Under the pieces are notes generated by a model, which was not told the origin of the DNA, searched no databases, and saw nothing but the letters and a program-made list of their open reading frames with translations. The position numbers were made by a program, and so were the translations under genes. From Tubulanus polymorphus (taxonomy: Eukaryota; Nemertea; Palaeonemertea; Tubulaniformes; Tubulanidae): DNA of 64,000 bases. The DNA is taken from positions 10,845,414 to 10,909,413 of the forward strand of contig NC_134034.1 in NCBI RefSeq assembly GCF_964204645.1, given 5' to 3'. Numbering within the stretch: the first letter of the stretch is position 1; each line of letters starts with the position of its first letter. Of the stretch, positions 15,401-59,578 are shown one piece after another.

Positions 15401-18400
15401 GTCTATTTCAACCTGACTTGAGAGCATTCCGGGTGGCCTAGCTCAGTCAGTTTTAGTAGTACATACCTGATAAAAGTCTTATTAGGACCACATTGTAAAA
15501 GTTTATTTTTCTCACTGTCTCAAGATTTTAAATCTCATCTTCAGTCTGAATTTCATTACAAGCGAGATCCTAATAAGACTTTTATCAGGTATGTACTACT
15601 AAAACTGACTGAGCTAGGCCACCAGGAATGCTCTCAAGTCAGGTTGAAATAGACATTAGACTTATCTACATAAATGAACAAAAGGAGAAATATTGTTGTG
15701 AAGTAGTTACGCAAAGATGAAGAATCATAAGAAACAAACCTTTTTCATGCATTCGTAAGCGCATTCTTGTAAATCATTGTTATTGCTATTCAACGCTTTA
15801 TAAAGAACGTTGAATATTTTATCCCTGCATTGCGGTATATAATGACAAGCTGCCAGCGCTCCTGAATATCGGAGATGAAAAACAAACACAAGAGACGTTG
15901 TTGTTAATATTCTATATTCAGCTAAAATAGCATTGAAATTCAAGACTCAGTTCCACAGCTCAGGGCCCAGTCAGGATCCAGACTGACGAAAAAGGTTCGA
16001 TTTAAAATGGTTTATACTTCATGTTTTCAATAAGGATAGCAATTCAAACTTTAATGTTTTAAGCTTAGAACTTTTTCATGACACTGAACCCAGGGCCTAA
16101 TTCCAGCCAAATTTAACTAACTGTGGAACCCAGTCATCAGTTGACTTACGTAATCCACTCTTCCTCAGTGGAATGAGGTTAGTAACGGATTTATAGCACG
16201 GTAGTTTCAGTAATACAGTATCCTCCTGTTCGCTGAGCGTCAGTAATTCCTGTACGAACACCTTGTGTTCGACTACGTTCAAATCGATCGTGAACAACCG
16301 CGGTTTCAACGTCGTACAAAACGTATTTCCATCCTAAATTAATAAACAAATTACTTAATTGAATATTCAATTAAATCCTTAATAAAACCCATTCAATAGG
16401 TTACTCAAACTCATTAGCTAATTGATATTTAAATTTTGTTCTCACCATGAGTCCTATCTGAGCGTTTGCTGGTTGATGTCGCAGTAGATGTTTTTTCGGA
16501 GGTATTATATCTTGTAAAACGTCTTTGTGCGGTTCCATGATGTCGGTCACCGATTTCTCCATCACTTTCGCCAGAACTTGTAAACAATGCATCGACTTGA
16601 AATGAGAAAAAATCGTTTTCAGAACTCAATGACTCAGCTGCTCATTTTAAGCGCCTGCTTTGTTGCAATTTTTGGAATTCAAACCATCTGCTGTGTTGCA
16701 ACTTTTGAATTCAAGCCGTCTGCTATGTTGAAACTTTTGAATTCAAACCGTCTGCCATGTTGCAACTTTTGAATTCAAACCGTCTGCCATGTTGCAACTA
16801 CTGAGTTAAAACTGTCTGCTGTATTGCAATATTTGAATTCGAACCGTCTGCTGTGTTGCGAGTATAACTATAGTTACCTGCTCTCTGACTAGTGTATTCG
16901 GAGATGTCACTTGTCTGACGAGTTCGTGGATGACGTCGTGAAGAGATTTCTCGCGAATCGCGTGAAGTTCTTCGTCCTCGTCTTTATTTTTTAGATCTTT
17001 AGCGCACAGAGTTAACATGTGTTCTAGATTCAGTTTAGCCATGTCGACAGCGCCGCTCGATACCTGCAATAATCAGTAGAACTAACTCTTTAGAAACATC
17101 TAGAACCACGAGCAATAGACAAAGCTGGGTTACAGTCTACATCTGAACCCAGCTCTACAGTTAGTTATATCTCAATCTGGAGTCAAAATGAGTTCATTTC
17201 AACGTTGAAAATCTTAACTGAGAACTGTGAAACTGTTTTACAATCTAATCACACTTGAGAAACCTCTCAATCAGTTTGCACCAGAAATTCCAGTTTCTTA
17301 AGAGGGGGTACAGTTATGATATTGAAGACTGACCTCTCCTGTAAGGAGGGGTACATTAATGGGAGACCTCGCCTGTGAGGAGGGGCACAGATATGAGCCG
17401 GGGTAGAGTAAGAGAAGGTATTGGCGACTGACCTCTCCTGTAAGATCCATCATTACGAACAGTAACGCTTTCAGAAACAGGAATTGATGTTCGAGCAACC
17501 AACGAGTCGACATCCGTTCGTACAGAAACTTAATCGCCAAACATCTGAAACGATCATAAAATAAATCGGGTTGAGAACCGAGCGCGACGACTACAGGATT
17601 TCGAAGCAGACGGATTACGTACCCTCCTAGTTTAGCGTACCAAGCGCGATCGTAACATAAAGCGCACATTTTCTCCGACAGATAATCGAACAACGGTAGT
17701 TTACACGCCTGAAATGATTACGATTAAACAAAAAACGCTACTCGCAAGTCTGATCGTTTGACTGGTTTGTTGTTTGATCGGAAATATATGCGATGTATTC
17801 TCTCAGCGTAGAAGATTACGAATAATCCCACGTAATGATGATAATAAAATTGGGCAGCCACTTTTATTTGACTTTCCCCCCCCCCCGACTATTCCCTGTC
17901 ACGCACGTAGTTTCCCTGACTTGATCTGCTAAGAATCCGATCAATTAACGCAATCAAATACGTAAGACATTGACGGAAACTGTTTCATTTTACACTCAAA
18001 CAAATTTCCATGACTTTTCCCTGAAATACTATTCCATGATATTCAAACTATTCCATGTTGTTTCCCCTGACTATTCCCTGAAATGCAAGTTGTTTTCCCT
18101 GACTTGATCTGCTAAGAATCGAATCAATTAACACAGCCAAATACACGTAAGACACAGACAGAACCTGTTTGATTTTACACAAGATCTAACGATCTCAACA
18201 AATTTCCCTCGCTTATTTAAAGAAAAGAAAATTCTCAGACTTTTTCCTGATTTCCAGGTAAGTGGCCACATTGTAAAAGTTTATTTTTCACACTGTCTCA
18301 AGATTTTCTCGAGATTTATCTAAATCTCATCTTCAGTCTGAATTTCATTACTAGCGATATCGTTCATTAGGATTGGCGAGCGAGTACCTTCTCCTTGGAG

Positions 18401-21400
18401 CCGAGTATCGTCGTCGCGATATCGAGTATGAGTACCATCGCTAGATTACCCGGTTTACACAACTCTTTCTCCTCGTGACCCATTATAACGGCGAGCGCGT
18501 CGATCAACACCTGCGGATCCATTCCTGTTAGTTTCGATTGTTTATCCATTACCGGAAACGGACCTGAAATTACGAAATAAATTGAAGAACGAGCTTCGCA
18601 TTCAGGTCAAATTTTTGGTTTAGTTTCACGGCATCTTGGCAATGAGGTCCACAATTAAGTATCATCAGCTTAACCAATTTCATAAAACCAGGAGAAGATT
18701 GAAAATTTGGTCAGTTATCACTACGGTTACACGTACCGGCTTGTTGAGCGATGGCGACCATCGTGTAATGACGAACCATCGAAGCCATAGTCGGCAGAAC
18801 GGCCGGTCGTAATTCTCTGATAGCGGCGGCAACTGTCAATAAATCAATCAAACGTTTATAACGATTTGAGGAATTAAGGGATCTGGAAGAGCGGGTAAAG
18901 CCCACAAAGCACGGAAACAGGGGATAGAAACAAGAGTGTTTTCATATGTCATGTGTGTTTACGAGAAAACATGGTCTCGGGAAACAATGTTTCCCAGTTC
19001 AAACCTGTTTCCTTCAGTGTTCCCTACGTCGTGCCCGTTTACGAGAAACATGATTTCGGGAAACAATGTGCCTGAAATCAAACACGCTCGATTCCATGAT
19101 CCTGTTTCCTTGCGTGGCGTGTGTTGGGTTCTTACACCTGTTCTTCGAGAAGTGTCTACTCACCGAACATGGCGGTTAACGCTTGTTCATGTACGTTACG
19201 CGTGTGCGAATCCTGATTCTTAAACAACAATCCGCAATAAACTGACGATTCTACATCGGCAAAACTATAAAACAATAAATAGTTATTATAGGGTATAATA
19301 TATCCTATAATATATCCTATAATATATATATTATAGGGTATACTATATGGGGTATATTATAGGATATCGTATAGGGTATATTATAGGGTATATTATAGGG
19401 TATATTATAGGATATATTATACCCTATAATATACCCTATAATATAGTGATGATGAATCATTCGAGTTTAGTGAATTATGGTAGTGGCAGACGTTTGTAAC
19501 TCATAGTGGAGGAGGTTAGCTTGTTTAGGGCGGGATAGGTGGTCAAGGGGGAAAAGTTTTGTTAGCAGGTGAGAGCGGTTGAGGGGGGAGGAGGGGGGAT
19601 ACCCGGTTATTCTTACCTCGTGTGACTGAATAAATGAGTAATCGATTGTTTCTCGTCGTCCAACGACATCGCCGACACCAGAAAACATTTTATAATCTCC
19701 CACGCCTGTTTACGATAGAACGGTTCCGTGCTGCTCGACTTCAAAGCGTTCAACGCGGCTTCGATCACCTGTTCGTAACAAACGGACAAATTCAATAAGA
19801 TATCTCGATTTGAATCGCAAATTAAACAGTCCGTATTATTGCGTCTTTTACGTACCTTTTCGACGGGGAAATTGATCGGTGTTTTACAATCCTGGAAGTA
19901 AACGGTCAGACACGGTCCGACCGTCTCTTTATCGTTGAAATTCAACTAAAAATAGTAATAGAGAAATATTGAATCAATTTTGTAATAGGGGGATTTATGG
20001 AGTTAACCATCTTGTTCGCAAGATGGTAGGTCAATTTGATGATGTCATAGGGGGATTTATGGAGGTAACCATCTTGTTCGCAAGAAGGTAGGTCAATTTG
20101 ATGATGTCATAGGGGGATTTATGGAGGTAACCATCTTGTTCGCAAGATGGTAGGTCAATTTGATGATGTCATAGGGGGTTCATGGAGGTAGCCATCGTTT
20201 TCTGATCAAAGGTAAGTCAATTTGATGAAGTTAGGGGATTTATGGAGAAAGCCATCTATTTTGGAAGGGTAGGTGAATATGATAATGTCATAGGGGGATT
20301 TATGGAGGCAGACTTCTTTTCTGAAGTGTCTACATATCAAATCACTAGAAGACAATTTGATAATGTCATAGGGTGACTTGTTGAGGCGGACACCTTTCTT
20401 CAAGAAACTTTTCGAAGGTTCTACCGATTTTACCTTCTGAGGTTCGGCGAGCATTTTCCGATTGCCGCCGCCGAATTTGCCTAAAACGCGGAACGCTACG
20501 TGCGCGATGCTATCAGACGGATTTCTCAACGTTCTCCACAACGCCTGCATCAGTTCGGCTCGAACCGGCTGTATGTGATCGTACAGGAAATCCGGTTGCA
20601 GATTATCGACGCACAGTTCAAGAGTTCGTAATCCCTGAAAAATAGAATTTGTCAGAGGTTGAATTTCAGAGACCAATCGAGCTATCACAACAGAAACACA
20701 AAATGGCAGATGCCCAAAAACAAAATGAAAATGGGTCTACTGAAAACGGAATATATGCTTTTTAGCGAACAGGAACCAGGGCGCCAACGAGTGAATCGAT
20801 GAAATCTTTTCAATTTTCATATTTTTCAATCAGTGACAAATAACCAGGTAAAATATCTACGTAATTCCACAACACCCAGCCGTACAGATCGCAGTTCCAC
20901 AGACGTTGTCGAACTTCGATTCTTAGAGTTAAAACGGTACATTTTCAAGCAGTTTTATCCGAAATTAGATCCACTGGTGGATGTAGAACTACCGTAGAAC
21001 AGCGGAACTGGGTCCATTTCATAAACGGTGTAAACGTCACGTACCTGACTGACGAGCGTCTGCGAACCGTTTAACGCCGATACAAGCGGGTCCATCAACA
21101 TCGGTAGATACGGTAACAGCGAACTCAAACGAACCGGAACCGTTAAACACAACTCGACGAATAGGTCTTTCATATGCTGTTTATGAAGACCGGATTGGAG
21201 ATTGTTCAAACCTGAAATATTACAGATAGCCACTACTGAAATCTGCATCTCTAAAACTAAAGTTTCAATTTAATTCAAATTCATGAGTTCTTTCCAGGAT
21301 ACTTTTCCTTCAAGATGCACTAAACTGGAAACTTTTCCCACCAAGGGGCAGTTATGGCTTGGATTTAAGACCCGTCTCCAAGGCCACCTCCGTTTTTAAG

Positions 21401-24400: not shown

Positions 24401-27400
24401 GAGACATCAAACCTGACTGGTCACTAGTCACCACACATGACTGGTCACCATAGATGAGCGGTCACCACATTGATCAGACAAACTTACAAAGTATGTCAGT
24501 CACCTAGAGCTCAGTGGTCTAGTGGTTAGGAGGGAGGACTGACAGGCTAGAGGCCCAGGTTCAAATCCCGCCATGGCTCGGTTATAGGGTGGCCTAGGGT
24601 AAGGGTTATTTCCAGGGCTGGGAGGGCTATAGAAGGTGCGACCTTAAGAAGCATATTTATTCTAAATATTTTTATATTCATTTTTTTCTTTTTTTTAAAT
24701 TGTCTTGAACATTCTGCTGGCTCATTTGCCTGCAGTGTCTTCCTCTGCAGAGATATGTCATATCTCCATGAAAAGATGATGAATGAGGGAGATTTCATGG
24801 AGCCATCCTTTCAACCGAGGGTCTATTGATTGCTAAGGGAGTGGACGCACACATTTAAATAAATAAACAGGACTTGAAGCAAATGCGGAAACATAGGAGG
24901 GGAAAGTATGGGTTTGGGGGTATATTCCAAACAATAATAAACCGTAATGACAGGTAAACCGGGTCCTCGAGTTTGAGCCCGTAGACGTCGGGGCTCGTGT
25001 ACCCGCACTCGTTCGCACGTACCGACAGACGGAGATTTACAGGAAGCCGCGCCCCACGTGATCGTTTTAACGCCGCACACGAGGGTTTTCACTAAACCGC
25101 GGCAGTCAGCGACGGAGAAATTCGGCTGAGCTCCGATCGTCGCGCCGATACGATTCTGAAAATATAAAACCACACAAGACGGATCAGGATCAGTAAATAT
25201 GAAGAAGGTGGCAACATTTTTTTTCGGGTAAATTTTCTAAATTCTACCTTTTCTTTCTGTTCGGATTCTTTATCGATCGTGAAAACGGTCGCCGTCGTCG
25301 TTTTGTTTTCGTCTTTTGAGGTGGCGCCACCGTTCAACGCATCGGTCGCGGTCGTCTCTTGACTCTTCGTGCCTCCGCCAGCGCTTGTAGTAGCGCCCCC
25401 TGTTGAACCGGCTTGTTGCGACCGCAGAGCCGCGGCAGCAGTCGTCGGCGCCGATTGTAACGACGTTTGAGACCCGCTCGACGTCGGACTCGACGACGTT
25501 TCCGGCTTTTCTTGAGGTTTGCTGAAATATTTACGACAAAATCCGATTAACCCTTTCAGTGCTGACTAATTAATACCCTAAAGTGCTGGAGATAATCCGA
25601 AAATTCTAAACAATTCCACCCTAGTGTGTTGAACAACGGGAATACCACTATAGTGTGTCTACACCGCGGCGCGATGTATCGTTAGTTACTAGTATTTCAC
25701 AATGTTTGACAGGTGCTGCCATTTTTCAAGAGAGATAATTACTAATTACATCAATACACCGCAGTGCGGTGTACTAGCAACATCTATCACTGATTTATAC
25801 ACCGCACTGAAAGGGTTAAATTACGATCTGAATCTATTTTGATATCGAGACGAATTTCATGAGGTTTTTACGATCCCTGGTCCTTGTGCCACTCTGTGAC
25901 TCATCACCAGCAAGAATCAGACACCAAAAAATTCAAATTCGCTGAATTTTCCCTGATTTCGAAGTAAGAATTCCCTGATTTCAAATAGAGTTTAAATAAA
26001 CGCACCATTTCAACAGCACGGCCGGCAGCTGTAACTCGGCGATAGTTTTAAACTTCAAAACGAACACTTCCAACATCCTCATCAATAACTCGCGACCCTG
26101 AAAATAAACAGTACCGTAGTTAGGAACCCACACAAGTTCAGTTCCAAATTTTCAATCTTCCAGGCTGGCAACTTATATTTCACTTGCTTTTTCCATGACT
26201 ATTCCCAGCATTGATCTGCTTAGAATCTAATCAATTAACACAGTCAAATACGTAAGACATAGATGGAAACTGTTTGATTCTACGCGCGATCTACCAGCAA
26301 TCTTTACTAATTTCCCTAACTTTAAGCTGCAATTTTGCAATATTCTCTGAGACTTTTTAAAAGGAATATCTAGTCTTTTCCCTGATTTCCAGTAAGTGGG
26401 ACCACCACTGATTTTACAATCGATCTAATTCAATCTCAACAAGTTTCCCTAACTTTTAGCAGCATTTTTACATTATTCTCTAACTTATCCCTGACTTTTT
26501 AAAAGGAATATCTAGACTTTTCCCCGATTTCCAGTAAGTGGCGCCACCACTGATTTCACAACCGATCTAATTCAATCTCAACAAGTTTCCCTAACTTTTA
26601 GCAGCATTTTTACATTATTCTCTAACTTATCCCTGACTTTTTAAAAGGAATATCTAAACTTTTCCCCGATTTCCAGGCAAGTGGCGCCACAACTGATTTT
26701 ACAACCGATCTAATTCAAAATTAGTAAACGCCGAACTCACATTTCCATTTTCGGCGTCGCTTTTCTGTCGAATGCACTCGGTGAGATTGAGCAGCAGTTT
26801 ACAGGACATCGTTTGTATACTGGACGGCAACGACTCGTCGTGCACGTTCTTCGAGAACAGATTCACGGCCAGCGACAGGTCGTTCAGCGGTAACGCCGTA
26901 CGTACGTGGTGTACGAGATCGGCTAACGTACTGTACGCCAGGGGGCGCAGCGATTCGTACGTCGTCCAGCCCGGTCCGATCAGTATGTTCTCGTCAAATA
27001 GTTTATCGATCACCGGCACGAATTCTGAAATTTCGAGAAAAAAAAAAAGAAGATTCGGTTTATCTTGACATTTTCATGATACGTTCGTGAATTCTTATCC
27101 AAATTCCCTGAGTTTTTTTTCCCAATCTTTTCTAGATTTTTCTCATTCCCTGATCTTTCAAGGTTTTTGACGATTTATCGAACACCCTGAGTTTTCCCAA
27201 CGTTTTCTAGATTTTTCTGATATCCAGGTTATCCGGGTCAGCGGCGCTGCCCTGTTTCCTAAATTTCTGAAGTAATTCCACTCACTATTTCTGAGATCCG
27301 TTACGAGGATATGCCGAGCGGCGATCAGCAGTTCTTTACGCAGGTGTGCCGCCTCCTGCGGACAAAGGGTTAACAATCCCAGCATGCCTTTAACCATCTG

Positions 27401-33486: not shown

Positions 33487-36386
33487 ATGCGTGAAGAGAA
33501 CCCGAGCAGACGGACGTCCAGGCACTTTTTACAGACGTTACTTTTCGTTACGAATATATTTTTGTGTGTGACAGCTTGGGGCTTTGGACCAAACTGCCCG
33601 GGCCCAATACGGCGGGATGTTATCTGCCCGAAGCCCTGTTTGTGTTGTAGGTAAGTTGTGAATTTAAACATCTGCTTTACTCGTGTACTAAATATTCGAA
33701 TTCGGCGATATCAATTTTCATCTTCGTCTGATTCTATTTCAGAACGTTCCTCAAAAATCAAGTAGAGGATCTTCGCATGACCTGCGTGCGCACCGGCATC
33801 ACTTCCGTGCCCAGGCTGATTCCCGTTGACGTCACATATCTCGATCTCGGCTACAATAACATTTCGACCGTGTCACGTGACGACTTTGCCGGCCTATCGA
33901 ATTTGCGGTCGTTGTATTTGCAAAGTTTAAAATTACTGAAAATTGAAAACCATACATTTTCGGGTCTTAAAAATCTTCGAACTTTGAATTTGGCACACAA
34001 TCCCGACCTTGACATTGAGGTGAACGCTTTCAGCGGTTTAGGTTCGTCGTTATCCTCGCTAGATCTGGAGGGTTCGGCGCCGAATTTCTACTCGGAGAAT
34101 CTGGAATCGTTGGCCAGTTTGACTCAGCTGAAAGACCTCACGATCGGCACTCTACCGTTGCCGTACTTGGACGAGCAAATATTCGTTAACAATACGAATC
34201 TTAAGGACATTCATTATTACGGCATGCCTGCGTTCGTGCGAACCCCGAATCTGACAGCCGACATCACGCTGGTGCTCGTTTACGATCGGTTTCGAACCCT
34301 GGACCTCCGGATTCCGATCAACGCCAACAATTTACGTGTTATCTATCCTTTGAAGGCGGAGCGTATGTTACTGCGGAGATATCTTACCGGATTACGGAAG
34401 GTTACGAATCTATCGATGCAAATCAGACGATCTTGGATTACCGTAATCAATACGGATTTATTTTACGATATCGCAGAAATCGACGCTCTCGATTTAAACT
34501 TCTGTCGTGTGCGAGGTCTGGTCGTCAATCTGATACAGTCGTTGCAGACGACACGTATTCGAGCCTTGTCGCTGCGAGACTGCAGAATTTCCAAGACGCA
34601 TCTCGTCGGAGCGTTATTCAAACCGTTACGCAACAGCTCACTGCGCGAGCTGGATTTATCGCTGAACTATTTCAGCGTTATACCGGAAAACGCGTTCGAA
34701 CACGTACCCGATTTGGAAATTTTAAAAATCGAATCGGCGAAGGTGGCCACTATCGCCATGGACGCGTTCGCGCATTTACACCGTTTGAAAATCGTCAAGT
34801 TAGGAGACAATAAAATATCGACATTTTCGATACCGTTTATATTAAATTCGTGCCCGGATTTGTTAGACTTATCGATCGAAGCGAATCAGATTACGTACGA
34901 CGAATTTTTCCACATGAACCATTCGAAATTGGAGCATTTGACGCTTTCGAGAAATCGAATCACGACATTCGTCGACGTCCGTCACTTGCCACGTTTGAAA
35001 ACGTTGTACGCGTACGCGCTCAATCCCATGAAATTGACCTACTATTTACGCGCGTTTGATTTTCGTGGGAACAAAAATCTCGAACAAATCGATATCGGTT
35101 CGAACAATTTGAGATTTACAAGTAGCGATAATACTCGTTTTGTCGGTTTGGACAAATTGAAGTCGTTAGACCTCAATAGAAACGCTTTAAGCCTCAGCCA
35201 GGAGGGGGCGATGGTGTCGGCATTTAGGAATTTCCCGCCATCGTTACAAGAGATATACCTCGCCGAGAATGACCTTACCGAACTGCCGGCCGGATTATTC
35301 CGTACCCTGAAGCAACTGCGTTACATTCATCTAACTGACAATAAGATAAAAATTATTCCGCGAGGATTTTTCGACGGGTTGAAAAATTTGATGGTGGTTA
35401 AATTGGACAAGAATGTTCTATCGACGCTGAGCGGCGACTCGGGTCTGACGTCATTGCCCAGCCTACGCCAATTGTCATTGGACGAGAATTCGTTCGTCTG
35501 CGATTGTCAGCTGAGATGGTTGTCAAACTGGGTGAACAGATCGGTTACCATCGATGTAGAGGGCGCCGATCAGTTCTGTCGTCTGCCAGAAAACCTGGAG
35601 AACACGACGATCGTCGGGTATCGTCTGCCGTGGATCAAATGCGATCGTAATTTCGAGAAACTAGCCGGCGGGATAGCCACGGCGACTGTGCTCATCAATC
35701 TGATACTGTTCGTGTTGATCATTCAGTACCGCGTCGATATCATGTTCTGGTGGAAGGTGACGCGTTATTGGCGCAATCGTTACGACGTATTCGCCGATTT
35801 GGCGGACGATTGTTACGACGCGTTCGTTAGTTACAACGTTAACGACGCTTTTTTCGCCACCGGATTCATGATCAGACATCTCGAACGTAGCGACGACGTT
35901 CGATTCAGATTGTGCATCGACGGTCGCGATTTCGAGTGCGGAGAGTTTCATAGCGTCAACATCGCCCAGAAAATGGAGAAAAGTCGCTGGGTGATTTTGG
36001 TAGTGTCGAAACACTTTTTGACCAGCGAATGGTGCAAGTATGAATTACACATGGCCGAATTGAAGTGTTTCGACGAAAGACGAAACGTGATTATTTTGAT
36101 ATTTTTGGAGGAGATCGACAGAAAGGCCTTGCCGAAAGGCGTCGTCTTGTTGAAGAAACATTGTCATTCTTTACGTTGGCCGAAAAAACAAAAGCAAGTG
36201 GCCCGGTTTTGGAAGAAGTTGAAATTGATAATGATCGGTCGCAATCGCAAAGAACAAACGACGACGACGGAAGCGAGGTCGGAGCCGACCACTTTTAGCG
36301 AATCGACGCGGGCTTCGATGGAACTGGCAGTCGAGTGCCGGAATAGCGTTGATGATATCAATATCGAGGCATTGGAAAGATTTTAA
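33487..36386 (+). CDS. Toll-like receptor, 935 residues, two coding exons
   Basis: Single-pass receptor with leucine-rich repeats outside and a TIR signalling domain inside the cell. Exon 1 is 33487-33650 and exon 2 is 33743-36386, joined over a 92-bp GT-AG intron (164 + 2644 nt, in frame). Exon 1 supplies the start (the first ATG after an in-frame TGA), a hydrophobic signal stretch (LLFVTNIFLCVTAW) and a Cys cluster of LRRNT type (CPKPCLCCR) that continues into exon 2. Leucine-rich repeats cover about residues 67-635, a single LRRCT begins near residue 641 (CDCQLRWLSNW), a transmembrane helix lies at about 697-719, and the TIR domain at about 746-890 has box 1 YDAFVSY and box 3 FW. Box 2 reads GRDFECGE, with Cys787 where most TLRs have the BB-loop proline. 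A Ser/Thr-rich tail of about 45 residues follows. One LRRCT suggests a single-cysteine-cluster TLR. Which TLR subfamily it is, and its ligand, cannot be told. Confidence 0.95.
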
Positions 36387-44500: not shown

Positions 44501-47500
44501 CTGGTTAACTTTAACCAACTTTTGACAAACTGGACCCAGGATTCAGTTCCGCAATGTTTAGTTGCAGTTAACTCTAGTTAAATGTGGCATTGCGGATCTT
44601 GAACTTGGGAAACGAGCCCTCGTAAATATCACAGGGGCTTTTTTGTAGAATACAAGATTTCAGAGGACAGCATTGGACAATAACACGGGTGACTTACTTT
44701 GAAAAGATTTGAAGGCACACTTCCAGAATTCGAGGGGTATTTGATGGACCAAGGGCTTAGACTCAGAATTTGACCGTTTGGGCCTTGAGGGTTTTAGATG
44801 GATTCGAAGGGCCGTAGGAAACCTGTTTACTACTATCGTTTACGGAGGCACTTTGGGAAGACTTGGCAAGCGGAAATTTCCCGCTGCTTACAGGAATACG
44901 TCATCAGTTTTTACGGGGGTGAAGCTGACCGACCGTTGGAGAGAGCGATGTTTTCATGTCAACAAAAAGTATAAACGCAGATTGTTCGGCGAAAAAGCAG
45001 ACGGCATATTTCAACGCGTGAAATACCCACGGTCACAAATTCCCCGCTCTACGCTCGCTTTCATTGACAAGGAAACATTTATTACTCGGTTTGACGCAGC
45101 GAAGATGAGCAGGCTTTCACCGAATCCAGATAAAATAGGCTTCCATTTGACGGGCCTACCAAAAACGGAGGCGAGGAAGTCGCCTACGAACATTTTTGAA
45201 AATCGAATACACGGCCATTGGACACAGCTTCTGACACATTCATCGGAGCAATTTTCGTATCGATTTCTTTATGAATCATATAACGAAATTTTCAAGTCAG
45301 ACGGGATAAGTGAACGACTGGGGCTCTACGCGAAATTTTACGGACATGAATTTTTCCCCCAAACCGACCTTGAGATGTTTGCGTCCTTCTTGATGCGTTT
45401 TCAAGGTCGATTCGCTGGTGCAGGCGACGTCGCAGATCTATAATAAATAAACACACTCAACTTTCAGAACAGATTCCGACAACGTACGAGGCGCTTGATT
45501 ATGCTAGTTTGAAATCGTTTATATTATTCTAACGGCCGATTGCTCGTGAGTTGGTTAGATCCTCGAATCGGATATTTGACAGTTGAAGTTAACCGGTCGA
45601 CAAGGCCAGAAAGACCATTAAAACTTTAACCCTTTCAGTGCTGACTAATTAATACCCTATAGTGCTGGAGATAATTTGTGTTGAATAACGGGAATATCAC
45701 TATAGTGCGTCTACACCACGGCGCGGTGTATCGTTAGTTACTAGTTTTTCACTATGTTTGACAGGTGCTGCCATTTTTCAAGAGAGATAATTAATAATTC
45801 GCAAAATCCATCACTGATTTAAACACGGCACTGCAGCGTAGACGCACTGAAAGGGTTAATCATTAATACCCCATTATTTCAGAGGCACAGCAGCTCAAAC
45901 ATTGGGTACAGTTAACTAGCGGATATTTGACATAGTGACGATTATAAAGTTCATTGTTACTATGGTATTTATCCGCCGGTTATCTTTAGCCAACTTTTCA
46001 ACTGCAGCCACAGCTGGTTTTCAAGAATTCAAAACCATTTTTAGGTTATAACTTATGTTCATAGAACCGAACATTAGACCCAGTACCACAGTTCTCATTA
46101 AGAATTTGACTCGAGGGTTTCAAACATTGAAAACGAACTGATTTTGACTCTTTTGAGTCAAAATGAACGGTGAACTGTGGAGCCGAGTCCTGATCGGTCA
46201 ACTTCAACCAACTATTGATCAACCGGCCGTAAACAGTCTGCTATCACATCGTCATAGTAACCGATGATATTGATTATTTACCTCGCATCTGAATTCGTCT
46301 GTTAACCCGGTATAAACCTCGAATACGCTTCGGTTCCGTTCGGCCGGAGTATTCCCGGGTGTCGTGTGCAGCGCTTGAGTCGACGGCAGGAAATTCGAAT
46401 TCCAACCTCCCCTTTCTCCACCGCCTCCTTGACCTCCGTTCCAACCTCCCTGATTTCCATTCCAACCTCCTTGATTTCCATTCCAACCTCCTTGATTTCC
46501 ATTCCAACCTCCTTGATTTCCATTCCAACCTCCTTGATTTCCATTCCAACCTCCTTGATATCCATTCCAACCTCCTTGATTTCCATTCCATCCATTGCCT
46601 TGACCAGTACTGTTACCTCTGCCTCGACCTCCTCCGAACCCGGATCCATCCCCGCCGTGACCTCGCCAACCTCCGCGACCTCCACCTTGTCCTTGACCTC
46701 TATTTGCGTTGGTCGCGGTTCGTTCGAAATTCGCCTCTTTTTTCGTGTTTGCAGAGAATGACATCGGTAACATACTGCGAATATCGGCGTTTATATCGGA
46801 GATATCTTCCTGTAGTTCGATCGCATCCGCATCTGCATCTGCTTTCTTTTCTGCAGCATCGGTATCCACAGCAGCTGCTGATACAGCTGCACCGTGCGAC
46901 GACGTATCGATTGAAAATAAACTCGGAAGTGCCGACGATTTTGGCGCGATGCCATCATTATTGTTTTTCTGACTGGTGGCGCCAACGGGTCCTAGACTGA
47001 AGCCACGGGCTCCTCCAGCTCCTCCACCGCGGGCTCCACCACCACGGGTTCCTACTCCGCGGGTTCCTCCTCCGCGGGCTCCTCTACCACGGGTGCCGCC
47101 GCCGCGACCTTTCGTCGCCGACTGGTCAGAATTCTTCACTTTTTCGCGCGCTTGTTTTTCTTGCGAGTCGGACGTGAACGCCATCGGAAACAGACTGCGG
47201 TCGATTCCTCCTCCGACGACCTCCGGCAAGTCATCTCCACCGGTTCCAGCTCCGGGATCAGCTGCAGCGGTTTCAGCTTCGGCTGCAGGACCTAGAAAAA
47301 TAAATAAAACTCAAGTATAACAGATCCCTCAGTGCTGAAATGAAAAAGTCCAACCCATTCCACCTGATGTCGGTACTGTTAAGAAATCATCGTCAATCGC
47401 AGAAAAATGAGGGTTACATTTTACACTTCAGAGGGGATATTTCTAAGGGTGCAGCCATGGTTACAGAGTCCATAAATGGAAAGCAACAGCTGCAGTTACT

Positions 47501-48465: not shown

Positions 48466-51130
48466 ATGGCAGATTTCGAATACGGTTTACAGCAACCAGC
48501 TGATCCTAAATCAGTTCAAGACTTAACTGCGCACGTAAGTTGTAAAGTCGAAACAATTCTAACCAATTCAAGCTTATATGATCAATGAAGAATTTATTTA
48601 TTGTGAAATATTTCTCTAGTTAAGTTTGAGAAGAAATATCTATTTCCAATTCATTTTACTGAGGCTATAGTCAAGTTTGATTCGTTACCAATGAAACAAT
48701 CGTTCTTAAACTGTGAGTCTGTGTCTGCTTTAAAAGCACAAGTTTGATTCGTTACCAATGAAACGATTGTTCTTAAACTGGGTCTGCTTTAAAAGCACAA
48801 GTTTGACTCGATAATCGTGTTGTACCTGTATTTTAACTATCTGATAGCTTGTTAGATTTGCTGAGGCTGAACAGTAGTTGACTCGTCCATTGATTATCTG
48901 TGTAGATACTGTGGTTTCTTGTCGTATGATTCGGAAAAACAATGCAATAATTTTCACCAAGGAAAAAGTGCTGGGAAAAGTTTTGTGGTTTGGAAGTTAT
49001 AGTCAGTAACCAGTCTGCGGAGGTTTAATTTGACGATTTTCACAAACCACATATTATTATTGGTATAAGCCAATCCGATGAGAAAAGCTTTTACCACCAG
49101 CGATTAGGTACCTGGTAACACTAACTTAGAAGTTATTTGATAGAGAATTTTATAAATGAAAATGTATTTCTGCCACTGCGGTAGGTGTCATCGCAATCAC
49201 CAAATTTTCACATGGCAAAATCGAGTCTGGATCAGTTGAAAAGGTTGGCATTATGAGAGCAGAAAAAATGTTAGTTACTCGTGGTACAAATGGCCATAAA
49301 CCTAACACACTCTTTTTGTAGTTAGTAGGTCTCGCGTTTGTAGTTAGACGGTCTTGCGGCAGTAGGCTACTGAATTTGGTAGCATTAGTACTGAATAAAT
49401 ACATATACATTAGCGCGCATTCATACACTACCCACTACTGTGTGCGAGTTGTAGAAATAGTCAATATTCTAAAAGCATTAATAATGAGCTGTGTTTATTA
49501 TCGAGCTATATATTTATATATTATTTATCGAGGTGTTCTGGTGTCTATTGTCTATAGCATGTTTCACCTCTAGTTCAGCCTTAATGCAAGGTCCGCATAG
49601 TGCAAATATATGTACAGTCTTTTGAAGTGATTATCACCAGTTCGGTGAGAATTCTAATCAAAGTTTCTTTTGTCTTTTATGGTTTTTCATTGCTTAACTG
49701 ATTCTCAGGAACAGACATATTTTCTTGTCTCCTGAAGATTGTCATTGTAACTGAAGGAAAAGTCACAGAATTTGCTTTCCTTTAGATAAGTCAGGGAATT
49801 TAATTTTAAAAAAAAAACGAGAAATCAGGGAAATACGTTGAGATTGCTATAGATCGCGCATAAAATTTAACAGTTTCTGTCTATGTATTGTATTGGATTC
49901 TTAGCAAAACAATTCAGGGAAAACAATGTGCATTTCAGGGAATTGTCAGGGCAAAAGCAAGTCAATTCTTTCCATTAATTTTCTGTTAAGCCTTGATTTT
50001 TGAATCCCTATGAGTTAGTGAAGTGTTTTTCCTATATAATGGACTGCTGCTGCTATATTTTCGATATAAACTACATTGGTTTTTTTCCATCACTCAATCA
50101 TTGAAAATGTCGATAAAATCTAGTTCTCACTGCTTCACCAATTACACAGTTGTGAATAGTTTTTATTGGCTTTGAATAGAATGTCCCTTTCATCGCTATT
50201 ATAACTCAATGCACTAAAGCCTAGATACAACCTGATTTAACCCCTCACTGATTCTAGTTAAATTGCCCTTAGAAACCGGTGTTTTTTATGCTGATTTGTT
50301 TAGGCGTAAATAGATTTCGCCAATTTCAAGTATAGGCGATATATATAGGATTTGGTTAATTAACATTTAAAGATCAATAGACCTAAAGTCTGTCTTGTTT
50401 GAGCAGATCTCTATTTCTGATCTCACTGACTGTCAATGATTGCTCTCACTGATTGCTCTCACTGATTGCTCTCACTGATTGCTCTCAATGATTGCTCTCA
50501 ATGATTGCTCTCACTGATTGCTCTCACTGATTGCTCTCACTGATTGCTCTCACTGATTGCTCTCAATGATTGCTCTCAATGATTGCTCTCAATGATTGCT
50601 CTCACTGATTGCTCTCACTGATTGCTCTCACTGATTGCTCTCTGTTAAATATCGATGTATTTTTTATGTTTTTTAGGTTCAAACTTTGCTCGGAACGATG
50701 CAGGAAAAATTCCAAGGAATGTCGGAGAAAATTATCGGAAGAAATATCCTTTTATTTCGATATACTCACTGATCCTTTTGAGGGCCGTTTCAATTACTTA
50801 CGTAATTTCCAAATTCCTGAGGTGGGTCAATTTGCAGGAGGGAACCAGGGTTATTTGAATTTTTTTTATTTTTCTTTATGTAATTAGGGAATTGTAGTCA
50901 AGGGTCAGGAAAACATCTAAGAACACATCAACCAGTGACAGGGGGTAAAATATTTGGCGCTTTGCTAATTTTCGCCACATAATTTTTCAACGTCTCCTGA
51001 AATTGTTTTTTCGATTGTTGTAAAATCCTTAACCGTTGTTTTACTCGACGAAATGGGCCACAAAATCGACGATCTCGAGAAGAATATCGCGGATCTGATG
51101 ACGCAAGCGAACGCCGACGAAGCCATCTAG
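48466..51130 (+). CDS. HSBP1: Heat shock factor-binding protein 1
   Basis: HSBP1 is a small coiled-coil protein that binds the trimerisation region of HSF1 and damps the heat-shock response. There are three coding exons: 48466-48534, 50677-50743 and 51045-51130 (69 + 67 + 86 nt, 73 residues; human is 76). The product is one continuous heptad-repeat helix. Its core (QDLTAH, VQTLL, EKFQ, IIGRIDEM, DDLEKNIADLMTQA) follows the family almost residue for residue. Intron 1 is GT-AG. Intron 2 starts ATATCCTTTT, contains TCCTTAAC 12 nt from its end and finishes in AC: a U12-type AT-AC intron. Splicing there is needed to join GR to IDEM and cannot be replaced by a nearby GT-AG pair. The gene is transcribed divergently from the RGG zinc-finger gene, with about 630 bp between start codons. 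Confidence 0.95.
48672..48805. repeat. Tandem duplication in HSBP1 intron 1
   Basis: AAGTTTGATTCGTTACCAAT and GTTCTTAAACTG...GTCTGCTTTAAAAGCAC occur twice head to tail. Confidence 0.75.
49000..49110. repeat. Dispersed repeat, first of three copies
   Basis: Shares AGTCAGTAACC, TTTTCACAAACCACAT and AAAGCTT[T]TACCACCA with 51866-51995; a shorter piece is at 41159-41205. Confidence 0.6.
50437..50642. repeat. 13-bp minisatellite, about 16 copies, HSBP1 intron 1
   Basis: TGATTGCTCTCAC and the variant TGATTGCTCTCAA alternate in blocks, ending about 35 bp before exon 2. Confidence 0.92.
50744..51044 (+). other. U12-type AT-AC intron (HSBP1 intron 2, 301 nt)
   Basis: The 5' splice site ATATCCTTTT matches the minor-spliceosome consensus. 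The branch-site motif TCCTTAAC is at 51026-51033, its branch A is 12 nt before the AC at 51043-51044, and there is no long pyrimidine tract. Exon 2 ends in phase 1 (GGA AGA A) and exon 3 resumes with TC GAC GAA, giving Ile-Asp-Glu exactly where HSBP1 proteins have Ile-Asp-Asp. Confidence 0.92.
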
Positions 51131-52614: not shown

Positions 52615-55600
52615 ATGGCTGCCGAGGAAGAGAGCCAATCAGAACGCATAATCCGCGAACTTCAAGAAGAAAACAAACGTCTGAAACATTTTCTGTCAAC
52701 TTCGACGAATGCCGGGAAATTCCTACATCACCATAGCGACGGCAGCGGCGGTGATCCGTCCGCGGGGAAATGGCCACAGAATTCATACATCGACCCTACA
52801 ATGATCGACGCTCATCAGTGGCACGTAGCAGCACCCCCTGGTGGTCAGACCGAGCGACCAGTGTTATCGGCGGTCGCCCACTCGGATGGCGCGACCTACG
52901 TGGCGCAGGTCGCCGCGCCGGATTCAACCTGGCAGATAACGACCTCGACCGAAGGCCAGGTGTCCGTCGGCGGCGGTAATTTTCCGTTAGTTTCCGCGAT
53001 GGCGCAGGTTCCTCATTCCGACGGGCAGCTGGCGACGTACTACGCACAGGTGGCAGCACCGTATAAACAACCGATCGATTCTATGGTACAGGTGGCAGCA
53101 CCTGATGGTCACTTATCTGGCTACCCGGTGATATCAGCCGTAGCGCAGGTCGCTGATTGGCCGGTTATTTCCTCTGTTCAACAGTTAAGTTCCACTGATG
53201 GAGAAAACGATTTGACTAAATCAAATTCAGGGTCGGGTAAGTTTGCAGTCCAGTCCAACAATCCCAAGTCCCCTACGACTCCATGATTCCTTTCCCAAAA
53301 CGGAAAATGCTTTTTAAGGTGCTTCTTGAAACTCCTTTTACGCCCGAAACCTTTTCAATTTTGAGAAGTTAGTTAATGCTATTGATATTTTTTGCAGAAT
53401 CGAAGAAATCTAAAATCGCCATGACAACGATGGACTCGCAGCAGACGGCTGTATCGAATCCGTCTGCCATCGCTACGGAAACGTCGAGAAATGGTTACTT
53501 CGACGGAAAAATGCCAGTGAAAATCGACGCGATCAAAACGGAGAACGTCGTCGAAAATTGCGCGGATAAATTCGTTTGCGGAAAATGTGGACAGAATTTC
53601 GTGAATCAGTGGACTTATAATCGGCACATGACGTTCGCGCACGGCGATGCCGGCGTTAAATCTAGCGTCGCTACGGTGACGGAGCAGACGGTTTATAAGT
53701 GCGATCAGTGCGTGCGAACGTTCGCGTACGAGTGGACGCTCAACCGACATAAAGAATTCTATCACGTTAGTACGAATAACGATTCGAAGGGGGCGCCGCC
53801 GTCCTCGTCTGTTGAGTCTTCGTCGAGCGATACGACGACGACGACGAATTACGTCGCGAAAAAAGTGACGAAAGTAAAAACGGAAAAACTGGAAGAATTC
53901 GTTCAGCGTCGGTCGAAATCCGAAGCGTCGGAGAAAATCGTTCTGATCGCCGAGGAGGAAAATAACCCGATGCCTCGCGACGAAGAGGACGGTTACCATA
54001 ACGACGATGAGAAGAGCGACGACGACGACGATGATGATTGTCAGTGGATATCGGGTGAAGTCGAGGTGATGAGCGATTATTGGGACTCGGACGAGTCGGT
54101 CGTCGAAATCGAGATCAACGACGACCGGGATAAAAAACCGGTCACTGTCGTCGAGTTATCTGACGGTGACGGGGAAACGGTGGATTGGGACTCGGACTCG
54201 GAACCGGAGACGGTCGTCGTTAAGACAGAACGAGATGACGATCGCGCGGATGTGTTCCAGGCGTTGAATATAAAAGTCGAGAAAGATGCCGAACCGGTAG
54301 AAGCGGTTACCACAGCAACGGGGGACGCGAAAAAAGGTCGAATCCGATGCGATTTGTGCGTGGGAAAGGACGAATACTTCACGTCGAAACGCTCGCTGGT
54401 CATTCATAAGAACCGCGCGCACACGAAATACCACAAAAACAAGAATAAAATGTACGAGTGCGACGTGTGCCGGCGCGAGTTCACTCGGATCGGTCACTTC
54501 GAACGACATCGGTTCTCCGTTCATAGTTTCTGCTCCGGAAAGAGGGGCATGAAAATGACGAAGAACGACGCGGCATCGGCGGCGAGTTTGAAACGCGTAA
54601 AAATCGAGCCAGCAGACGACGAAGATGTCGGTGGAGCAGACGAAGATGTCGGTGGAGCGGACGGATTAAAAGAACCAGCAGACGGATTAAAAGAACCAGC
54701 GAAAGGATTAAATGAATCAGCGGACGGATTAAATGAACCAGCAGACGGATTAAAAGAACCAGCAGACGGATTAAAAGAACAAGCAGACGGATTAAAAGAA
54801 CCAGCAGACGGATTAAAAGAACCAGCAGACGGATTAAATGAACCTGCAGACAGATTAAATGAACCAGCAGACGGATTAAAACAACCAGCAGACGGATTAC
54901 ATCGATGCGACGTTTGTCAGCTTCGGTTCGCGCGGAAAGAAGCTTTGAACGATCACATGAATTTTGTTCACGAAAAACAACGAAAACTAATGGACGAAAC
55001 AACGACATCACAAAATCATCAGTGTAAAATTTGTCGTAAAACGTTCGACGGACATTCCACACTGAAAGCTCATATTTCGAAAGTGCACGTCAACGGCGAA
55101 CCGCAAAAGTGCGAAATATGTCAGAAGATTTTCAAACTGAAAGGAACGTTACGACTGCACATGACATCGCAGCACGGAGTACCATACACGAACCCGGATC
55201 CTCCGCCGACCGAGCCTGCTGTGTTGACTCCTCCGCGCGTTAAAACGGAGCCGCCCGAACCGGACTCTGAATCTTCCTCCGAGGCTTCGATGGCCGTCGA
55301 TTCATCTGATGTCGAATTCAAGTGCGATTCGTGCGCGAAGGTTTTCCCGACTCATCGCGGTCTCGCCGTTCATCGATACCGCGCTCACGTGATGAAAGCC
55401 GAGGAAGACGACGGCGCGGAACAGGATGCAGACCGTGACCAGGACACGTTGTATCTAACCGGAAATACCGATCCGTCGTTTCGCACGCTAGAGGAACTGT
55501 TTCAATGTCCGTTCTGTCCGAAAAGCTTTCCGACGAAACGCGGACTCACGACGCACAAAACGAAAGCGCATCCGTTGCCGCAACTAGGTGGCGGTGACAA

Positions 55601-58600
55601 ATCGGAAAGTCATTCGCCACCAGATGGCGTTGGTGAATCGGAAAACGAGGCGGGTTTTACGCGGATTAAGCAGGAACCGGTTGAAGCGGACGGGACTAGG
55701 AGCGAGGACGAGTCTTGTCGATCGAGCGTCGATTACGACAAACCGAGTCGCGCCGCCGTAAAAACCGAACCCGGTTCAGAACCGGACGACGAACGAGTTT
55801 GGTCCGACGAAGTCGATCGTAAACCGCGTTTAGCATGCGACATCTGCGGCAAATTGTGCGTGACGAAAATCGGGCTTGCCGTGCACCAACGCCGCGCGCA
55901 TTTCAAACCGCGTCGCCATCGGAGAACGGTTCTGTCATCCGATCGTCTGTTCCGGTGTCGCACGTGCGGACGGAAGTTCGCGCATCGAGCGAACTTGAGT
56001 CGTCACATGTCGACGGTGCACTCGTCGACGCGGTCGTATCCGTGTAAGTTCTGTCAGTCTAGTTTCAAAACGAACTCGTCGTTGCAGACGCATTTGTTGA
56101 CGGTTCACTCGAGCGACCGGCCGTGGGAGTGCTCCGTCTGCCCGCAGACGTTCAAACTGAAGGCGACGTTGAAGTCGCATTATCAGACGATACACGTCGC
56201 GACGCGCGCGTTCAAATGCACGGAATGCGACAAGTGTTTCAAGTCGCTCGACGTGCAACGCAGCCACCAGCGTCGCGTTCACGAGGGCCTGCGCCCGTAC
56301 GCATGCGAACTGTGCGGCAAGCGTTTCAAAACGAAAGTGACGCAGCGCAATCACGTGTCGACCGTACACTTGAATCTGAAACCGTACGAGTGCACGATTT
56401 GCAATCAGAAATTCGGCCTGAAGGCGACGATGACGACGCACATGGCGACCGTTCACGACAACCGGCGACCATTCCGGTGCGAGCAGTGCGACCGCGGCTT
56501 CAAGAGCAACGACGCGTTGCGGTCGCACATGAAAACCGTACATTCGGTCGCGCGGCCGTACGTCTGCCTCGTCTGTCATAAAGGCTTCAAATCGAAGAAC
56601 AGCATGAAAATACACGCGTCGACGGTGCACAGCGATCAACGTTCGTTCGAGTGTAAAATCTGCGCGAAATCGTTCAAGTTGAAAGCGACGTTGACGACGC
56701 ACGTCAATCAGGTGCATCTCGGCACGCGTCCGTACGCGTGCGGCGTCTGCGACAAGCGTTTCTCGATGAAGAACAATCTGACGCGTCACGTCGCCACCGT
56801 TCACGAGGGCGCGCGCACGTACGGTTGCAACGTCTGCCGCAAGATGTTCGCGTCGAAAGGTTCGTTGAACATACACATGTCGTCGGTGCACCTGCAGCTG
56901 AAACCGCACCAGTGCAGCGTTTGTAAGAAGAACTTCAGCGCGAAGGTAACGTTAACGAAACACGTGCAGGCCGTGCATTTGCGCTTGAAACCGTTTCAGT
57001 GTCAGGTTTGCGAGCGTAGCTTCAGTTTGAAAGGCTCGTTGCGCACGCACATGAAAGCCGTACATCTCGGACTGCGACCGCATCAGTGTAAAATCTGTTT
57101 GAAAAGCTTCAAAATGAACGTGACGTTGACGACGCACATGCGCGCCGTTCACGAGGGCCTGCGGCCGCACCAGTGCGCCGTCTGCCAGAAGAGTTTCAAA
57201 TCGAAGATGTGCATGCAGAAGCACGTCGGCGCCGTACACCAACGCCTCAAACCGTTCAAATGCTCGCACTGCGACAAACAGTTCAGTTTCAAGGGCTCGT
57301 TGAACATGCATGTCAAGGCCGTGCACCTCGGATTACGACCGCACGAATGCGACATCTGCCACAAACGCTTCAAGATGAACATGTCGATGCAACGTCACAT
57401 ACGCGACGTACACATCGGACTGCGACCGTACCCGTGCGAACTGTGCGACAAACGTTTCAAGTCGAAAATGACGATGCAACGCCACGTGGCGAGCGTTCAC
57501 TACGGCAAGCGTCCGTTCCACTGTCCGAACTGTCCGAAACGTTTCAGCATCAAGGGCACGTTGACCAATCACGTGAAGGCCGTGCACCTCGGACTGCGGC
57601 CGCACGAGTGCAAAATCTGTCACAAAAGTTTCAAAATGAATTTGACGTTGCAGACGCACATTCGTGGCGTGCATTTAGGAATACGGCCGTACCCGTGCAC
57701 GGACTGCGGCAAGGCTTTCAAATCGAAGATGACGTTGCGCAATCATGTATCGGCCGTGCACCGACGTCTGCGCCCGTACGAGTGTGAAATCTGCAAGAAG
57801 TGTTTCAGTTTCAAGGGCACGTTGACGACGCACGTGTCGTCCGTTCACGTCGGGCTGCGGCCGCACGAATGTCGCGTTTGTCAGAAAAGTTTCAAAAGCG
57901 TCGAAACGTTGAAGAAGCACACGAGCGCCGTGCACTTGGGCTCGCGGCCGCACGAGTGCGAACACTGCGGCAAGAAATTCAGCTTCAAAGGCTCGTTGAA
58001 CGTTCACGTGAAGAGCGTTCATTTAGGAATTCGACCTCACGAGTGCAGCGTCTGCCAGAAACGCTTCAAATTAAAGGTTTGTGACCAGAGACCTTTTAGT
58101 GTAGTTATTACTAGGGTTCTTACAGAGATATCTGGGCTCTTACGGATCAGGGGAATCTGGGTTCTTACGGATCCAGGGAATCTGGGTTCTTACGGATCCA
58201 GGGAATCTGGGTTCTTTCGGATCCAGGGAATGTGGGTTCTTATAGATCAGAGAAATCTGGGTTCTTACGGATCAGGGGAATCTGGGTTCTTATGGATCCG
58301 GAAAATCTGGGTTCTCACGGATCCAGGGGAATCTGGGTTCTTACGGGTCAGGGGAATCAGGCTCAGTTACTGAATTCCATATTAATTTTTTTCATTTGAG
58401 AATTTGAATTTCAGAGTAGACAATTTTGACAATCTACTCTCCATAGATCGAAATAGTCGAATACTTAATTAGGAATTTAAGATAATTTGATCAATGGTCA
58501 ATAATTCTGCTGTTTGAAATATTGCATAATGAACTTATTACAATTGTTTGGTCAAATTCAACTAATGAAGATATTTCTTTTTTTCAAACAGGTGACCTTG

Positions 58601-59578
58601 ACAACGCACATGCAGACGGTTCATTTCGATTATAGGCCGTTTCGATGCGAGGTCTGCGACAAGAGTTTCAAGATGAAGTCGACGTTGACGACTCACATGT
58701 CGACTGTTCACCTCGGCGTACGACCGCACCTGTGCAAGGTCTGTCACAAAAGTTTCAAATTGAAGGCGACGCTGCAGGCGCATCTGTCGTCGGTGCATCT
58801 CGGATTGCGTCCGTACCGATGCGAGATTTGCGACGGGCGTTTCAGCTGCAAGACGAATTTATCGCGTCACATGTCGACCGTCCACCAGGGGGCGAAGCCG
58901 TACCAGTGCGAGATTTGTAAAGCGACATTCGGCTTGAATAGTAACCTACGGCGGCACATGTTCAGCGTACACGCCGGTCTGAGACCGTTTAAATGCGAAC
59001 ACTGCGATAAAACTTTCAGTATGAAAGAAACGTTAAAAATGCACACGTCTGCCGTACATTTGAAATTAAAACCGCACCAGTGCGCCATCTGTCAGAAATG
59101 CTTTTCGATCAAATCTTCGTTGAAAGTGCATTTAGAGACCGTTCATCAAGGCGCGCGTCCGTACAAATGCGAGATCTGTCAGCAGACGTTCGGACAAAAA
59201 AGTAACCTCGATCGCCATGTGATTTCTATTCATGCCTCTGGTGGCGCTAGTCGTCGTTCTAGCGCGGCAGCGGAGACGACGCCGCGAAAACGACATCGGT
59301 GTAAACTGTGTCCGAAACGTTTCGCGAAAAAGAGCCAACTCGATCGCCACGTCGACAACTTTCATCAGTTCGAGGATTCCGAAGTTGAAAAGGAGGAGAC
59401 TGAGGATGAAGAGCAGGACGACGAGGACTTCGCGATCGAGGGGGATGAGGAAAATGAGATTCCGATGAAAAGGATGAAATTCGACGAGCGGCAGACAGAT
59501 TTTTCACCGGCAGCAGACGACAGCGATATGGAACTGATCGTCAAGGTCGAACAAATCGAAGCGGATGATTCCGTTTGA
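52615..59578 (+). CDS. Giant C2H2 zinc-finger protein, about 43 fingers, 2,095 residues
   Basis: Three coding exons, 52615-53236, 53398-58076 and 58592-59578 (622 + 4679 + 987 nt), join in frame. The start is the first ATG after the acceptor at 52584 (MAAEEESQSE); a 5' UTR exon must lie upstream. Residues 5-28 look like a short coiled coil (RIIRELQEENKRLKHFL). An Ala/Val/Gln-rich region with four QVAAP-type repeats follows to about residue 260. Fingers 1-10 are spread out between acidic, Ser-rich linkers; fingers 11-43, from residue 1059, are almost contiguous at a 28-residue period. Nearly every finger is C-x2-C-x12-H-x4-H, usually ending in TVH or AVH, with linkers such as GLRPHEC instead of TGEKP. 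Finger 35 is split by the last intron. The tail is acidic. Nine psi-K-x-E sumoylation motifs lie outside the finger arrays. Probably a sequence-specific nuclear DNA-binding regulator; no target or named orthologue can be given. Confidence 0.92.
58113..58352. repeat. About 27-bp minisatellite in the last intron of the giant zinc-finger gene
   Basis: GGGAATCTGGGTTCTTACGG followed by ATC[AC]AG repeats about nine times. It stays open in the finger frame for about 100 codons, which is not coding. Confidence 0.85.

Follow-up and report, generated by a model that had tools for sequence, protein, structure and literature searches.

The window analysed here is a stretch of 64,000 nucleotides of DNA from Tubulanus polymorphus (contig NC_134034.1), and positions given without a contig name are counted from its first letter. 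On its + strand lies an HSBP1 gene of three exons and two introns, whose features are collected in the table. We found that the joined exons translate into a protein of 73 amino acids that covers positions 1-51 of the 51 in the Pfam HSBP1 profile (PF06825; E 2.9e-26), with a score of 91.5 bits that passes the gathering score of 28.6. The human HSBP1 chain 3ci9 also matches the joined product (E 6.1e-16), and this alignment is ungapped at the junction of exons 2 and 3 (...IIGR-ID...). Viral and prokaryote contigs scanned for HSBP1 relatives gave 6 and 60 pattern matches, respectively, of which 0 were confirmed.

Several other features share the window. A TRRAP/Tra1-type gene, recognised by the Pfam models Tra1_ring and Tra1_central, has exons at approximately 8160-20736 on the - strand. 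A stop-to-stop open frame of 884 amino acids at 33732-36386 (+) contains leucine-rich repeats as well as a TIR domain and is a Toll-like receptor candidate. An open frame at 46252-47310 (-) is rich in RG and NQGGWNG repeats and has no Pfam match. Downstream, at 53373-59578 (+), lies a large C2H2 zinc-finger gene with an open frame of 1666 codons, in a region that also holds long frames in other frames and on the other strand.

Table. Features of the HSBP1 gene, by position in the window
Feature	Position	Strand	Description
HSBP1 exon 1	48466..48534	+	coding, 23 codons; ATG start; ends GCGCAC, followed by GTAAGT; phase 0 end, in frame with exon 2
HSBP1 intron 1	48535..50676	+	ordinary GT-AG, U2-like, phase 0; GTAAGTTGTA...TTTTTTATGTTTTTTAG; contrast to intron 2
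HSBP1 exon 2	50677..50743	+	VQTLLGTMQEKFQGMSEKIIGR plus first base of Ile codon; 3' end ...GGA AGA A at 50743
HSBP1 intron 2	50744..51044	+	probable U12-type AT-AC, 301 nt, phase 1, GC 0.35
U12-type 5' splice site ATATCCTTTT	50744..50753	+	8/8 to consensus ATATCCTT at +1 to +8
In-frame TGA on retention of intron 2	50770..50772	+	54-aa product
Branch site TCCTTAAC	51026..51033	+	8/8 positions; 12 nt 3' of branch A, 11 nt 3' of the 8-mer
3' splice site AC (TTTTAC)	51043..51044	+	no AG in scan after 50941 and before 51078
HSBP1 exon 3	51045..51130	+	begins TC GAC GAA ATG; codes ...DEMGHKIDDLEKNIADLMTQANADEAI, stop TAG

The first intron begins with GTAAGT and ends with TTTTTTAG. The second, in contrast, reads ATATCCTTTTAT...AAAATCCTTAACCGTTGTTTTAC; its final letters are CGTTGTTTTAC, and it falls within an Ile codon, between the first base and the second. 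A preliminary description of this DNA had placed a minor-spliceosome AT-AC intron in HSBP1 at precisely these coordinates, and our analysis bears out both its boundaries and its class: the 5' splice site agrees with the U12-type consensus ATATCCTT at all eight positions, and so does the branch site, which is followed by the AC end 12 nt after the branch A. The consensus is that of PMC2831892, of which part of the text is drawn on throughout. The fly and human U12 AT-AC introns of KCMF1, STX6, SLC9A7 and PHB2, in the portion of Table 2 of that paper used here, have ATATCCTT, TCCTTAAC and the AC end in common with HSBP1 intron 2. A bias against phase 0 is reported for U12 introns in the cited part of PMC7367187, and the phase 1 position of HSBP1 intron 2 fits it, although the KCMF1 control intron described below is in phase 0. 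We conclude that HSBP1 intron 2 is very probably a U12-type AT-AC intron, a reading to which we assign a probability of about 0.96.

Terminal dinucleotides by themselves do not settle the splicing pathway, according to the text of PMC2831892 cited here, and some sodium-channel introns with AT-AC ends are removed by the major (U2) spliceosome. SCN4A intron 21, a U2-type AT-AC intron in the same source, has these ends in common with HSBP1 intron 2. The sodium-channel introns of this type, as that part of the paper describes them, carry a G at +5; in HSBP1 intron 2, however, the base at +5 is C, as part of a full ATATCCTT, and the intron also has a perfect TCCTTAAC. Removal of HSBP1 intron 2 by the major spliceosome is, in our judgement, very improbable.

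The junction itself is fixed by the protein. Among removals that give products of equal length (donors 50678-50799, acceptors up to 51119), the pair 50744/51044 was the only one to yield the HSBP1 protein, which upholds, for the range tested, the earlier claim that HSBP1 is restored only with these ends. A broader scan, over donors 50678-50899 and acceptors up to 51117, returned 4725 removals with any ends that leave the frame open as far as the stop; of these, 36 were AT-AC, 12 AT-AG and none GT-AG or GC-AG. The sequence around the intron does offer GT dinucleotides (at 50721, 50787, 50802, 50822 and 50826) and AG dinucleotides (ending at 50941, 51079 and 51082), from which one could suppose that the real intron has GT-AG ends and that the gene codes for a diverged HSBP1. 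Yet rescue of the frame by a GT-AG or GC-AG pair was dismissed, given that the scanned range contains no such pair, whereas the AT-AC product covers 51 of 51 Pfam positions; an intron with GT-AG ends is accordingly exceedingly unlikely. A gene finder restricted to GT-AG and GC-AG ends would be unable to make the right HSBP1 junction, so the earlier remark that a standard gene finder would miss intron 2 is plausible, and annotation limited in this way would get the C-terminal part of HSBP1 wrong.

We also weighed whether the locus could be a pseudogene or dead copy in which the motif match has no function. One point in favour of this is that the assembly may hold gaps. Nevertheless, each of the three exons has an open reading frame, the donor of exon 1 is canonical and the protein is conserved. 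Furthermore, of the seven HSBP1-family matches listed in the genome, only two exceed the Pfam cut-off, namely exon 2 and exon 3 of this same gene; no other match among those listed lies above the cut-off. We regard a dead copy as hardly credible.

How much the motifs themselves contribute depends on where they stand. Either motif taken singly is unremarkable, with about one expected per window: RTATCCTTT was seen 2 times in the window against 1.46 expected, and TCCTTAAC together with a 3' end was seen once against 0.62 expected. When 5' and branch sites were paired loosely (spans of up to 3 kb, the 5' 8-mer exact and at most one mismatch in the branch site), the window yielded 6 rows versus 3 to 24 in 20 Markov-simulated windows, and thus no excess; by demanding an exact 5' 8-mer, this pairing scan would miss weaker minor introns in the window. 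Under strict conditions (AT-AC ends, the branch 8-mer exact, at most 600 nt), the window had 2 rows, both of which start from the HSBP1 5' site; among the 20 simulated windows, a single one had any rows, and it had 2. At one given site, the chance expected from composition only is about 2.3e-6 for ATATCCTTTT and about 0.06 for AC; for TCCTTAAC, allowed at any of six spacings (an assumed number), it is about 1.1e-4. The weight of the motif evidence comes from its position, because protein homology independently fixes the junction.

One further site in the window, GTATCCTTT at 21613, has branch partners with one mismatch and was not taken as an intron. This site is probably antisense within a Tra1/TRRAP gene, because the Pfam-supported Tra1/TRRAP exons at 8160-20736 lie on the opposite strand, as does an open frame at 26699-27073 that we take to be TRRAP-like.

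Two genes served as controls in the same genome. KCMF1 has a U12 AT-AC intron in both fly and human, according to section 8 of PMC2831892 in the part cited, and we found that the KCMF1 gene of this genome (G000:C2, locus L025) likewise contains an AT-AC intron. Like HSBP1 intron 2, it starts with ATATCCTTTT and ends with AC. Unlike HSBP1 intron 2, with its 301 nt and phase 1, the KCMF1 intron is 214 nt long, lies in phase 0 and has an imperfect branch site, GCCTTGAC, which departs from the 8-mer by one mismatch, is followed by 11 nt 3' of the branch A and was missed by a 9-mer scan. AT-AC is the sensible choice of ends for this intron, because moving it to either neighbouring offset, which leaves the protein unchanged, would call for CA-TA or TA-CG ends. 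The comparison with fly and human KCMF1 is by gene and intron type, as given in the cited part of PMC2831892.

PHB2 is listed with an AT-AC U12 intron in the same table of that paper, in the portion used here. None of the six introns in the stretch of PHB2 read was AT-AC, all being GT-AG by eye, and a motif scan of the PHB2 loci (L018 and L019) that allowed one mismatch gave GT-form U12 sites, all with one mismatch, and none of the AT form. The orthologous AT-AC intron may have been lost, may have switched type or may lie further 3' than the stretch read. One of the two controls, KCMF1, supports the HSBP1 reading, and PHB2 gives it no support.

The preliminary description had gone on to propose that the organism has a working minor spliceosome and that the genome be searched for U12, U11, U4atac and U6atac snRNAs. 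In our Rfam search of the genome, all four scored above their gathering scores: U12 with 111.8 bits, U11 with 98.1, U4atac with 73.0 and U6atac with three copies at 96.5, 93.5 and 40.5 bits. The Rfam models gave 0 matches to the window itself. The U6atac-like copies are located at C8:14138292-14138410, C6:5269837-5269953 and C8:15260197-15260307; the 96.5- and 93.5-bit copies are near identical and lie on different contigs, and the 40.5-bit copy looks diverged.

The snRNAs of this genome can pair with the HSBP1 intron. The 5' end of U11 and the HSBP1 5' splice site form 8 bp at -7.0 kcal/mol; when the splice site was shuffled 2000 times, 16 shuffles equalled this energy. The duplex includes the first base of U11, which is U in this genome where the Rfam consensus has A. 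U6atac with the same 5' splice site gave -7.3 (equalled by 128 of 2000 shuffles), and U12 with the HSBP1 branch site gave -6.5 (107 of 2000), so that these two energies are only mildly unusual in comparison with the shuffles. Within the branch site, the letters TCCTTA are able to base-pair with the UAAGGA of U12 from this genome. Nucleotides 1-20 of U4atac and 29-60 of U6atac form a duplex of -32.2 kcal/mol, computed without a shuffle control. In that stem, CCGUC of U4atac stands opposite GACGG of U6atac (L003 and L004), and one pair differs on both sides from the Rfam consensus and forms G-C; a single G-G mismatch adjoins it.

Three of the four minor-spliceosome-specific proteins sought were present in the genome. 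SNRNP35 was matched with E 1.5e-56, its top PDB match being the U11/U12 35 kDa protein, and PDCD7 with E 7.1e-66 (PDB match 5e-46). The CENATAC zinc finger was found as a single match of 43 positions (E 1.5e-7), with the PDB entry 'Centrosomal AT-AC splicing factor' at E 2.8e-4. U11-48K was not found in the genome with profile PF05253, both matches resembling GTSF1. One of these (L015, C8:12185195) was dismissed on its match to PDB 6x46, which is GTSF1-like, and the other (L014, C8:16438272) by its likeness to the first, so that L014 is probably GTSF1-like too. GTSF1 is a piRNA-pathway factor. The snRNAs U11, U12, U4atac and U6atac, together with SNRNP35, PDCD7, the CENATAC zinc finger and the KCMF1 AT-AC intron, support the proposal of a minor spliceosome in this organism.

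By the established mechanism, U11 would pair with AUAUCCUUUU of HSBP1 intron 2, and U12 with UCCUUAAC, leaving the branch A bulged. U4atac/U6atac would then join, and U6atac would replace U11 at the 5' splice site. The intron would leave as a lariat with an AC 3' end, presumably with the assistance of CENATAC, which promotes the splicing of AT-AN introns in human cells, as reported in the portion of PMC8280824 cited here. The coiled-coil chain of HSBP1 would be complete only after this removal. If the intron were kept, translation would run into the stop at 50770, and the truncated product of 54 amino acids would consist of the first 45 HSBP1 residues and 9 foreign ones, with a Pfam match that ends at position 28 of 51. 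That whole HSBP1 would depend on the splicing of intron 2, as had been suggested, follows from this stop and from the absence of a GT-AG or GC-AG rescue in the scanned range. A stress regulator of 73 amino acids would, judged by sequence, need the minor spliceosome for its whole product in Tubulanus polymorphus.

No further intron was found between coding exons after intron 2, and an mRNA that retains intron 2 would thus have no downstream exon junction in its coding part. Junction-dependent decay therefore need not remove such an mRNA, and we infer, considering the coding part only, that HSBP1 mRNA that keeps intron 2 may escape this decay. It is possible that the splicing of intron 2 is a regulatory step. 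U6atac is stabilised under p38 stress signalling in human cells, according to the cited part of PMC3728624, and one could imagine a stress valve in which, through U6atac, the minor intron would hold back HSBP1 mRNA while cells are calm and let it through under stress. We consider such a valve distinctly unlikely; if true, it would mean that the brake on HSF1 is made from stored pre-mRNA when the response must end.

HSBP1 intron 2, as judged from its motifs, is one very clear example in a known class of hundreds of introns; in human cells, for instance, 179 A-type minor introns were compared with 441 G-type ones (PMC8280824, in the portion used). What appears to be new is the host gene. A literature search of article full texts returned no report of HSBP1 with a minor, U12-type, U12-dependent or AT-AC intron; the single paper listed with both HSBP1 and the minor spliceosome deals with expression in brain haemorrhage. 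A count of the string 'hsbp' in the main text gave 0 for each of PMC2831892, PMC7367187, PMC10639083, PMC8280824, PMC6717393 and PMC3728624, and HSBP1 is absent from the 19 fly U12 introns in Table 2 of PMC2831892. The HSBP1 gene-structure literature examined gives a target exon and the places of SNPs and does not give intron class. A human HSBP1 intron may well be catalogued in U12 lists already. If the position of the intron were common to other animals, HSBP1 would stand among the deeply conserved minor-intron genes, and minor splicing would be tied to the control of HSF1.

The U2-like intron 1 of HSBP1 contains a 13-bp tandem array, TCACTGATTGCTC, at 50433-50642, with 16.2 copies and 97% matches, whose end lies 34 nt from exon 2. 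The units of the array contain ACTGAT or ATGAT, which we take to be branch-site-like.
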